In this document: piece by piece, positions 26,294 through 41,992 of the stretch
How the letters are laid out: each line of letters starts with the position of its first letter
Position numbering within the stretch: the stretch's first letter is position 1
Assembly: GCF_030818655.1 (NCBI RefSeq)
Contig: NZ_JAUTAN010000001.1
Coordinates: 3,596,001 to 3,660,000, forward strand
Length of the DNA: 64,000 nt
Direction: 5' to 3'
From: Nocardioides zeae
GTDB lineage: Bacteria; Actinomycetota; Actinomycetes; Propionibacteriales; Nocardioidaceae
Translations under genes and position numbers: made by a program
Notes under the pieces: generated by a model
The model's database searches: none
Seen by the model: the letters and a program-made list of their open reading frames with translations, nothing else
What the model was told of the DNA's origin: nothing

Positions 26294-26428
26294 TATCCGC
26301 AACGGTGAACCACCGGTGAGCGCGCGTCGTCCGTCACGTGTCCGGGACGGGCCCACAGCGCGGGTGCGTACTCTGTCCGGGTTTGACCGCCCCCGCGGTA
26401 CCCGCACAGCAGGAGGAACCCCCGCCCC

Positions 26429-37355: not shown

Positions 37356-39907
37356 GTGAGCGTCGCGCACACGGACCAGTCGTTCGCCGAACCTCCTCCG
37401 GAGGAGTGGGGCGACGGGCCGTCGTCGTACGCGCCGGGCGAGGCCCCCCAGCGCTCCGGCGGCGACCGCACGCCCCCGCAGGACAACGCGGCGGAGCAGT
37501 CGGTCCTGGGGTCCATGCTGCTGAGCAAGGACGCGATCGCCGACGTCGTGGAGACGATCCGCGGCACCGACTTCTACCGCCCGGCCCACGAGGCCGTCTT
37601 CGACGCGATCATCGACCTCTACGGCCGCGGCGAGCCCGCCGACCCCGTGACCGTGGCCGCCGAGCTCCAGCGCAAGGGCGAGCTGCAGCGGGTGGGGGGA
37701 GCGCCCTACCTGCACACCCTGTCGGCCAACGTGCCCATCGCGGCCAACGCGGGGTACTACGCGGAGATCGTGCGCGAGAAGTCCGTGCTCCGGCGCCTCG
37801 TGGAGGCCGGCACGCGGATCGTCCACATGGGGTACGCCGGGGAGGGCGAGGTCGACGACATCGTCGACGTCGCCCAGGCCGAGGTCTTCAAGCTCGCCGA
37901 GAAGCGGTCGGGCGAGGACTACGCGCCGCTGGCGGACATCATGGAGGGCGTCCTCGACGAGATCGAGGCGATCGGCAACCGCGACGGCGGGGTCTACGGC
38001 GTGCCGACGGGCTTCGCCGACTTCGACGAGCTGACCAACGGCCTGCACTCCGGGCAGATGATCATCATCGCGGCGAGGCCTGCCATGGGGAAGGCGCTCG
38101 CGCTCGACACCCCGCTCCCCACCCCGACGGGTTGGACCACGATGGGTGAGGTCGCTGTCGGCGACGAGCTCGTGGACGCCGACGGTCGGGCGACGCGCGT
38201 CGTCGCGGCGACCGAGGTGATGGTCGACCGCCCCTGCTACGAGGTCGTCTTCTCCGACGGCACGACGATCGTCGCCGACGCGGAGCACCAGTGGCTCACC
38301 GAGACCAGAGCGGCGCGGAAGTCGGCGTGGGCGGCGGCCAACAACTACAACCGAGCCCGCAACCACAACATCCGGGCGTCCGTCGTGACGACCGAGCAGA
38401 TCGCCGCCACCGTGCGAGTCGGCGCCGAGCAGCGGGCGAACCACGCGGTCCTCAACGCCGCGCCACTCACCGGCCACGACGCGGCGTTGCCGGTCGCGCC
38501 GTACACGCTGGGCGCCTGGCTCGGCGACGGTCACACCGCGCTGGGAATCGCCTGACGTCCGAGACGCCGGAGATCCCGATGCACGTCGAGGCGGACGGCT
38601 ACGCGGTCGAGCCACGGGGCGGGATGACTTACTCGATCCGGCTCGCCCCCGAGGAGTCGATCGACGGGTGCTGCCTCTCGTGCGGTGCACCCCTGCCAGG
38701 CCCCCGGCCGCGGTGCGTCACCTGCTGGGCGGACCACGGCACCTTCACCGCTCTGCTGCGGAAGGCGGGTGTGCTCGGGCGCAAGCACATTCCCGCCGCC
38801 TACCTGCGTGCCCCCGAGGCTGACCGTCGAGCCCTGCTCGCCGGCCTGCTCGACACCGATGGCACGGTCGTCAAAGGTGTTGGCTCCTGCCAGTTCGCGG
38901 TGACGGATCAGCGCCTGGCTGACGACGTGCACGAGCTGGTCGTCTCGCTCGGCTACCGGTGCGGTCGCACGACGAGGGCTGTCAAGGGCCGCGACGCGGC
39001 GCACTCGGTGTGCCACATCCTCAACTTCTCGACGACCGACGACGTCTTCCGCCTCGAGCGCAAGCACCTGCTCCACAAGGAGGAGCGCCCGACGAGCACG
39101 GCTCGGATCGGGCGTCGCTACATCACCGAGGTCCGCCCGGTGCCCTCCGTCCCCGTGCGGTGCGTGCAGGTCGACAACGAAGCGCACCTCTACCTCGCGG
39201 GCCGGTCGATGGTGCCGACGCACAACTCCACCCTGGCCCTCGACTTCTGCCGCGCGGCCTCGATCCACAACAACATGACGAGCGTCTTCTTCAGCCTGGA
39301 GATGAACCGCGCCGAGATCACGATGCGTCTGCTCTCGGCCGAGGCGCGGGTGCCGCTCAACCACATCCGCAACGGCCAGATGACCGACGACGACTGGACG
39401 AAGCTCGCCACGAAGATGGGTGAGGTCTCCAGCGCGCCCATGTTCATCGACGACAGCCCCAACATGACGATGATGGAGATCCGGGCGAAGGCGCGGCGGC
39501 TCAAGCAGAAGCACGACCTGCGCCTCGTCGTCATCGACTACCTGCAGCTCATGAGCTCCGGCAAGAAGGTCGAGAGTCGCCAGCTCGAGGTCTCGGAGTT
39601 CTCCCGCCAGATCAAGCTGCTGGCCAAGGAGCTCGAGGTGCCGGTCATCGCGCTGTCGCAGCTCAACCGTGGCTCGGAACAGCGCGCCGACAAGCGACCG
39701 ATGGTCAGCGACCTGCGCGAGTCCGGCTCCATCGAGCAGGATGCGGACATGGTCATCCTGCTGCACCGCGACGACGTCTACGAGAAGGAGTCGACGCGCC
39801 CCGGCGAGGCCGACCTCATCGTGGCCAAGCACCGCAACGGCGCGACCCGCGACATCGTCGTGGCGTTCCAGGGCCACTACTCGCGGTTCGTGGACATGGC
39901 GCAGTGA
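37356..39907 (+). CDS. dnaB: Replicative DNA helicase DnaB with an intein; frame broken inside the intein
   Basis: Hexameric 5'-3' helicase at the replication fork. The N-exteins (37356-38093) show [25 protein letters not shown] and [27 protein letters not shown]. The C-extein (39227-39907) resumes with [33 protein letters not shown] and [34 protein letters not shown]. The intein lies inside the Walker A motif, between K and S of GKST. One base is missing in the GGG run at 38543-38545: the upstream frame stops at 38553-38555, while [11 protein letters not shown] continues in another frame. Restoring a G gives one 850-residue precursor. GTG 37356 follows GGAGG. As dnaB is essential, an assembly error is likely. 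Confidence 0.9.
38094..39226 (+). mobile_element. Class 3 intein with LAGLIDADG homing endonuclease (frameshifted)
   Basis: Self-splicing protein element of about 378 residues once the missing base is restored. It starts with Ala rather than Cys/Ser and carries the W-C-T trio of class 3 inteins. Block B is [14 protein letters not shown] (His65, Trp67), block F has [15 protein letters not shown] with Cys at position 4, and block G is PTHN with Thr before HN, followed by Ser +1. The two LAGLIDADG motifs are [10 protein letters not shown] and [11 protein letters not shown], so a homing endonuclease is present. Related inteins sit at the same P-loop site in actinobacterial and phage DnaB. Confidence 0.88.
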
Positions 39908-40752
39908 CGGCCGGCGAGCGTCCCCTCGAGCCCGGGGTCCGCACGGACCTCCGCTCGACGATGGACTACGGGTCCTACCTCGACCTCGACCGCCTGCTCT
40001 CGGCGCAGCACCCGGTCAGCGACCCGGTGCACCCCGACGAGCTGCTCTTCATCGTCCAGCACCAGACGACCGAGCTGTGGTTCAAGCTCGTGCTCCACGA
40101 GCTGCGCTCCGTGCGCGGCTACCTCGACGCCGACGACGTCAGCCGCGCCCGCAAGGCGCTGGCGCGCGTGAAGCACATCTTCAAGACGCTCGCCGAGCAG
40201 TGGTCGGTGCTCGCGACGCTCACCCCGAGCGAGTACGCGGAGTTCCGCGGCTCCCTCGGCGCGTCATCGGGCTTCCAGTCCCACCAGTACCGCGCTGTCG
40301 AGTTCATCCTCGGCAACAAGAACGCCCGCATGCTCGAGGTCTTCGACGCCAAGCCCGCGGCTCGGGCCGAGCTCCAGGGCCTCCTCGACACCCCGACCGT
40401 GTACGACGCGTTCCTCCGCCTCCTGGCCCGCCGGGGCCACGCGGTGCCGGCGGACGTGCTCGAGCGGGACGTGCGCGCGGCGTGGGTCGAGGTCCCCGGC
40501 CTCGTCCCGGTGTTCCAGCGGATCTACGGTGACACGTCGTCGGCCTGGGAGGAGTACGCGACCTGTGAGGACCTCGTCGACCTGGAGGACGCGTTCCAGT
40601 TCTGGCGCTTCCGCCACCTGCGCACCGTGCAGCGCACCATCGGGTTCAAGCCCGGCACCGGCGGCAGCTCCGGCGTCGGCTTCCTCCGTCGCGCGCTCGA
40701 CCTCACCTTCTTCCCCGAGCTCTACAGCGTGAGGACCGGTATCAGTGGCTGA
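39904..40752 (+). CDS. kynA: Tryptophan 2,3-dioxygenase
   Basis: Haem enzyme that opens the indole ring of tryptophan to N-formylkynurenine. The 282-residue protein has [43 protein letters not shown] (distal His/Gln region) and [20 protein letters not shown]. The C-terminal [37 protein letters not shown] carries the proximal His. Start is GTG 39904, overlapping the dnaB stop by four bases, which is unusual for a catabolic gene. It overlaps kynU by eight bases. Confidence 0.95.
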
Positions 40753-41992
40753 CATCCTCGACCTCCTCCCGACGCACCTCGTCGACCGGGCGGCGGCCCT
40801 CGACGCCGCCGACCCGCTCGCGGAGCACCGCAGCGCGTTCGTGCTGCCCGAGGGCGTCGTGGCCTATCTCGACGGCAACTCGCTGGGCCGGCCGCTGGCC
40901 AGCACGGCGGAGCGGCTCCGCACCTTCGTCGACACCGAGTGGGGCGAGCGCCTCATCCGGTCGTGGGACGAGCGCTGGATGACCCGGCCGACGGAGCTCG
41001 GCGACCTCATCGGCCGCGCGGCTCTCGGCGCTGCGGCCGGGCAGACGGTGGTCGCGGACTCCACCACCGTGCTGCTCTACAAGCTCGCCCGCGCGGGGGT
41101 GGCCGCCCGACCCGGGCGCACCGAGATCGTCGCCGACTCGGAGAACTTCCCGACGGACCGCTTCGTGCTGGAGGGCATCGCGGCCGAGCTGGGGCTGAGC
41201 ATGCGATGGATCCGTCCCGACCCCGCCACCGGCGTGACGCTGGAGGAGGTCGAGGCGGTCGTGGGGGAGCAGACCGCTCTCGTCGCGCTCAGCCACGTCG
41301 CCTACAAGTCGGCCTACATCGCCGACCTCCCCGGGATCACCGCCGCGGTCCACCGGGTGGGCGCCCTCGTGCTCTGGGACCTGTCCCACTCGGTGGGCTC
41401 GGTCGAGGTCGACCTCGACGCGGCGGGCGTGGACCTCGCGACCGGCTGCAGCTACAAGTACCTGAACGGCGGGCCCGGGGCGCCGGCGTTCGCCTACGTC
41501 AACGCGGCGCTCCAGCACGAGGTGACCCAGCCGATCGCCGGGTGGATGGGCCATGCGGACCCGTTCGCGATGGGCGAGGGCTACGAGCCGGCACCGGGCA
41601 TCCGACGGTTCATCAGCGGCACGCCCCCCATCCTCGGCATGCTGCCGCTCGAGGACATGGCGCGGCTCGTCGAGCGGGTCGGGATCCGCGTCGTACGGGC
41701 GAAGTCACGGGAGCTGACGGCGTTCGCGATCGCGGTCGCCGACGAGGCCCTCGCCCCGCTCGGCGTCACCGTCGCCTCACCGCGTGACCCCGACCGGCGG
41801 GGCGGGCACGTCACGCTCGAGCACCCGGCGATGGCCGCCGTCGTCGAGGAGCTGTGGCGGCGCGGGGTCGTCCCCGACTTCCGCCGGCCCATGGGTCTGC
41901 GGGCGGGCATGTCGCCGCTGAGCACGAGCTTCACCGAGGTGGCCGTGGCGCTGGCCCACGTGGCGGACCTCCTGCAGGAGGGGCGCGCCTGA
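40745..41992 (+). CDS. kynU: Kynureninase
   Basis: PLP enzyme that cleaves kynurenine to anthranilate and alanine. The 415-residue protein has [11 protein letters not shown] near the start and [45 protein letters not shown] (PLP-binding Asp). [16 protein letters not shown] supplies the Schiff-base Lys. GTG at 40745. With kynA it covers two of the three steps to anthranilate; the formamidase (kynB) is not in the window. Confidence 0.95.

Follow-up and report, generated by a model that had tools for sequence, protein, structure and literature searches.

A class 3 intein in the P-loop of Nocardioides zeae DnaB, interrupted by a frame break that is most likely an assembly error

Class 3 inteins are defined by a WCT triplet, and one of them, DnaBi1 of Mycobacterium smegmatis (PDB 6BS8), is inserted at site b of the P-loop of the replicative helicase DnaB, as described in the available part of PMC6195587. 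DnaBi1 is a 139-residue mini-intein without endonuclease. When split artificially, by a designed cut at residues 94/95 between its Hint halves, it trans-splices (PMC10559147, available part). Class 3 also has a natural split intein, AceL NrdHF, encoded in another gene, nrdHF of a phage-like contig. Its split, into parts of 98 and 48 aa, falls between the Hint halves and leaves both nucleophiles to the C part, and a GIY-YIG endonuclease is encoded by a separate gene; its authors found no split form among the 1701 others that they searched (PMC7891396, available part). Titles and abstract openings among the literature matches listed named no natural split class 3 dnaB intein, and a query that combined intein, frameshift, dnaB and pseudogene returned no paper.

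Anatomy and class of the dnaB intein

We analyzed a stretch of 64,000 nucleotides (hereafter the window) from Nocardioides zeae, in whose assembly (G000) the chromosome is one contig of 4,380,404 bp, with a completeness of 97.78%. The window carries a dnaB gene with an intein and a broken frame, with the following features:

37356..39907, + strand: dnaB, gene of the replicative helicase precursor with intein, frame broken (Pfam and NCBIfam matches to both parts)
37356..38093, + strand: N-extein, the DnaB N-terminal domain up to the Walker A Lys (PF00772 and the start of PF03796)
38094..39226, + strand: class 3 intein with a LAGLIDADG endonuclease part (residue signature; matches to solved class 3 inteins)
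38286..38294, + strand: codons of block B from His65 to Trp67 (residue signature)
38508..38531, + strand: LAGLIDADG motif 1 (residue signature)
38538..38545, + strand: frame-break interval, with a net surplus of two bases over two sister species (DNA alignments)
38553..38555, + strand: TGA stop that ends the N part (sequence)
38569..38581, + strand: GGAG followed by an in-frame ATG (38579-38581), the whole basis for a putative restart; coding letters in the sister species
38834..38863, + strand: LAGLIDADG motif 2 (residue signature; PF14528)
39161..39163, + strand: codon of the block F Cys (residue signature), the initiating nucleophile of class 3 inteins according to the available part of PMC6195587
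39218..39229, + strand: intein end Thr-His-Asn (39218-39226), then Ser+1 (39227-39229) (residue signature)
39227..39907, + strand: C-extein, the DnaB ATPase domain from the Walker A Ser, stop included (PF03796)

The gene starts with GTG at 37356 and has its final stop, TGA, at 39905-39907. Its N part (37356-38552) is a single open frame comprising the N-extein and the N part of the intein, with Pfam matches to DnaB (PF00772, 6.8e-35) and the start of DnaB_C (PF03796, 1.3e-10). The C part is open from 38531 to 39904 in a different frame, with homology resuming at 38543, and it matches LAGLIDADG_3 (PF14528, 1.4e-5) and the remainder of DnaB_C (3.8e-88). Downstream, the GTG start of the next ORF overlaps the dnaB stop and a further overlapping ORF follows (window 39904-41992); the two presumably resemble genes for tryptophan 2,3-dioxygenase and kynureninase.

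The intein interrupts Walker A at the K/S junction; it begins with an Ala codon (38094), ends with an Asn codon (last base 39226) and directly precedes the Ser. Its first residue, Ala, is not a nucleophile, as is typical of class 3, and the WCT triplet is complete, with Trp67 in block B, the Cys in block F (39161) and the Thr in block G (39218). The translation further shows the DxxH of block B (Asp62 to His65), the terminal His-Asn and the Ser+1 nucleophile. Both LAGLIDADG motifs are there, in different frames of the deposited sequence. The preliminary description had thus been right about the intein's coordinates, its class 3 residues with the two endonuclease motifs, and the split between K and S.

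Solved class 3 DnaB inteins were matched by the N part (6RIY, 3.3e-32) and the C part (6RIX, 5.3e-11), and 6BS8 was matched as well. Because residues 1-76 and the last 39 residues align to these structures, the break, near residue 149, falls into the endonuclease insertion, outside the Hint halves. The window intein shares P-loop site b, Ala1, His65 and Trp67 at identical residue numbers, the block F Cys, Thr-His-Asn and Ser+1 with all three, DnaBi1 included. Unlike the mini-intein DnaBi1, it has a LAGLIDADG part, the deposited frame of which is broken. Among 48 distinct intact long inteins, which were taken from the retrieved loci by a pattern fixing the insertion site and the terminal His-Asn, 47 share Ala1, HxW, the block F Cys and Thr-His-Asn; the remaining one (L077) starts with Cys and is of another kind. 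Judged by its residues, the intein is an ordinary class 3 member, a known kind at a known place.

Two side observations concern the endonuclease part. Between the LAGLIDADG motifs (window 38674-38738) lie Cys-x-x-Cys pairs that resemble a small zinc ribbon; similar pairs occur in the inteins of many relatives and are absent from some, and one might speculate that they bind zinc. In addition, the first LAGLIDADG motif is eroded or missing in several inteins at the same site (L041, L045, L047, L048 and L051), a picture of endonuclease decay in stages.

The frame break in sister species and in the assembly

In two sister species, G064 (one contig) and G234, dnaB is intact and open, with the intein present. 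Alignment over 2552 nt gave DNA identities of 93.5 and 93.7%, with a single gap, located at the break, where the window is longer by two bases; the intein has 1133 nt in the window and 377 codons in both sisters, a difference of 2 nt. Nocardioides terrigena (L032, about 79% identity) shows the same two-base gap, together with other gaps elsewhere. The inteins of these three relatives share the site, the signature and the two LAGLIDADG motifs with the window, but their frame is open and they are two bases shorter at the break. This comparison, which the preliminary description had proposed as a check, changes part of its account. It had placed a one-base break at 38543-38545 and considered a single G dropped by the assembly its most likely cause. 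The break itself is confirmed, within 38538-38545, but its one-base nature is not, and a dropped G was rejected as the cause, since all three relatives differ by net two bases. Net two extra bases shift the frame exactly as one missing base would. The sequence has no long single-base run at the break site.

A second complete dnaB, which together with reads confirming three Gs would have pointed to a true pseudogene according to the same description, was not found: the N part as query had one match in its own genome, at the stated completeness of 97.78%. The substitution pattern is that of a working gene. In the comparison with G064, we counted 26 synonymous differences and 1 non-synonymous difference in the N-extein (dN/dS 0.012), 27 and 0 in the C-extein (dN/dS 0), 30 and 18 in the N part of the intein (dN/dS 0.19) and about 45 and 15 in its C part (dN/dS 0.10); the dN/dS values against G234 are nearly equal. 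As far as substitutions can tell, the exteins are under strong purifying selection and dnaB was functional until very recently, which is expected of an error and of a very young mutation alike.

How often such breaks occur in this assembly was estimated from a two-way comparison of 1.055 Mb of G000 (24% of the chromosome, including the window) and 1.07 Mb of G064. Genes were counted if the G064 coding sequence aligned at >=85% over at least 70% (n = 505). Breaks were counted if they were single events of 1-2 nt, with at least 100 aa of the ORF before and 25 aa after the break and a third-position substitution bias on both flanks. In this 24% sample, simple mid-gene frame breaks affected 17 of 505 genes in G000 versus 1 of 513 in G064 (Fisher p 6e-5, with genes treated as independent and with cut-offs picked after the list was seen). 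The 18 events in G000 were 16 insertions (13 of one base, 3 of two bases) and 2 deletions; the single event in G064 was a deletion. With a start cut-off of 60 instead of 100 aa, there were 19 events in 18 genes (3 deletions) in G000 and 2 events in G064. All clusters together numbered 100 in G000 and 84 in G064, and those that changed the frame with a coding bias on both flanks 24 and 10, respectively. The 17 broken genes may include true pseudogenes or wrongly delimited ORFs. Two of the 18 events share one 1017-aa ORF of uncertain quality, and another lies in a 566-aa ORF whose family match starts downstream of the break; the true number may be around 14.

The broken genes, identified from their G064 copies, include hemL (G000:C1 2972056-2973437) and a NADP-glutamate dehydrogenase gene, both above NCBIfam cut-offs. 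Below these cut-offs are a mutM-like gene (2934861-2935690) and two genes that do exceed Pfam cut-offs, for a GH65 enzyme and a gamma-glutamyltransferase. Genes for a TrpA-family protein (2639688-2640510), a desaturase, a luciferase-like oxidoreductase and an RNase H protein are broken as well. In a bacterium of this kind, hemL is an essential gene, as is dnaB. hemL is open in G064, G234 and a further genome, G007, and no other hemL match above 36% identity was found in G000. The gene of the TrpA family, open in both sisters (G064 and G234), lacks a match in G007 and has distant relatives elsewhere in G000, so that it may be dispensable. Within the window, dnaB is the sole break relative to G064, and relative to G007 the sole true break among 22 matched ORFs. 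A candidate second broken gene near window position 26300 was rejected, as the relative's ORF overruns the antisense of a neighboring gene.

Error, split intein or recent mutation

Most likely, and we hold this with considerable confidence, the living cell has a normal dnaB whose P-loop carries a full-length class 3 intein, and the break between the LAGLIDADG motifs comes from one or two wrong bases in the consensus or assembly, one of many such errors in this chromosome. That dnaB and hemL are both broken in one closed chromosome, with a bias toward insertions, indicates consensus errors. What we observed directly is the intein anatomy, the single copy, the unbroken dnaB of the sisters and an excess of insertion breaks in the assembly. 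Some unpolished long-read data are rich in insertions. On the other hand, this reading is weakened by the lack of a second broken gene within the window, and also by the two-base length of the difference, since one-base homopolymer errors are the more usual kind. Fragmentation of genes by long-read errors has been described (PMC12007338, available part). The preliminary description had likewise favored an assembly error, and the insertion breaks in the sampled 24% of the chromosome, hemL included, support it in this respect.

If the break were real, the locus could encode a natural split class 3 intein, with the N part ending at the TGA at 38553, the C part restarting at the ATG at 38579, and the halves trans-splicing to DnaB. 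Such an intein would resemble AceL NrdHF in its split between the Hint halves and in having both nucleophiles on the C part, as well as the artificially split DnaBi1, another class 3 DnaB intein cut between the Hint halves. The break spares both Hint halves, and a GGAG (38569) lies 6 nt upstream of the in-frame ATG, which itself follows the stop by 23 nt. The trans-splicing of the artificial construct and the existence of the natural case, as given in the available parts of PMC10559147 and PMC7891396, also favor this reading. Furthermore, 6 of the best 120 C-part proteins start at the matching Met (P0052, P0061, P0072, P0082, P0092 and P0119), one of them on a contig of 98.9 kb. Against it, the letters of the putative restart are plain coding sequence in the open sisters, which have one gene, and other genes of the assembly are broken likewise. 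The window intein differs from AceL NrdHF in its internal endonuclease and in a break that is probably not real, and from the artificial construct, which was cut by design in a mini-intein. We consider it very improbable that the break is a real split of this kind, and give equally little credence to its corollary, that one small indel in the endonuclease part made a two-gene trans-splicing DnaB intein, with an essential helicase built from two polypeptides.

Nor was a second case established in genome searches of three genera, where 125 of 129 listed intein copies are open. In Nocardioides (215 genomes), 29 of 31 strong matches (E 7.6e-80 or better; 9 weaker matches left out) are open with >=846 aa, the others being the window and G195, where a contig end truncates the copy. 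In Microbacterium (295 genomes), 17 of the 18 listed copies are open with at least 779 aa. The exception, G784 (L282, the source of P0020), has more than one frame change, the earliest some 30 residues past the intein start and within the Hint N half; this genome of few contigs is probably another assembly with errors. In Mycobacterium (297 genomes), 79 of 80 copies are open with >=759 aa, among the listed matches that reach query residue 403 or beyond, with G491 (595) as the exception. Many dnaB fragments start or end in the endonuclease part (among the best 120 of 1565 and the best 120 of 2128 protein matches), and the length limits of these protein searches favor such fragments. Recurrent splitting at the conserved Met was therefore rejected, as the genome searches in the three genera gave it no support.

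Two further observations stand beside these searches. In G023, a single-contig Nocardioides genome for which no intein match was listed, the C part of dnaB is in pieces, with internal TGA codons (G023:C1:3518360-3519041); trans-splicing could not explain this, because the C part is broken multiple times. P0146, a Mycobacterium-like DnaB N part of 461 aa with 8 members, departs from the homologous frame in the endonuclease part, and a chance read error is less easy to assume here because there are several member sequences. Its source genome was not found among the 297 Mycobacterium genomes (best match 90% and open, among the matches listed).

A real break could also have arisen recently in the culture or clone, with replication sustained by an unseen helicase, by an intact copy outside the assembly or by a mixed population. 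The incomplete genome leaves room for an unseen copy, and the low dN/dS would be expected of a very young mutation no less than of an error. Yet the chromosome is one contig with one dnaB match, and the broken hemL would require a second such escape, which makes this account improbable. Recoding, that is, ribosomal or transcriptional slippage that restores the frame of a truly broken dnaB, is suggested by the overlap of the two open frames and by nothing else. The sisters require no slippage, the site offers no long single-base run, the window has no Rfam match at gathering score, and slippage would be needed at many unrelated sites. We regard recoding as extremely improbable.

Implications for the helicase and its intein

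With the break taken as a consensus or assembly error, the frame would be continuous in the real DNA, and the DnaB precursor would be made as one polypeptide. By analogy with M. smegmatis DnaBi1, we infer that the intein splices in the same way. The block F Cys would attack the N junction, Ser+1 would receive the N-extein and the Asn would cyclize. The exteins would then be joined, and the Lys-Ser of Walker A restored.

The annotation of this genome needs care because small breaks, mostly insertions of 1-2 nt, affect 17 of the 505 genes compared. More generally, an apparently dead essential gene or an apparent split intein should first be weighed against the frame-break rate of its own assembly. 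Intein-bearing dnaB fragments are common in protein collections, and could pass for natural split inteins. Should the break be real after all, the locus would be a rare case, an essential gene with a natural split intein of class 3.
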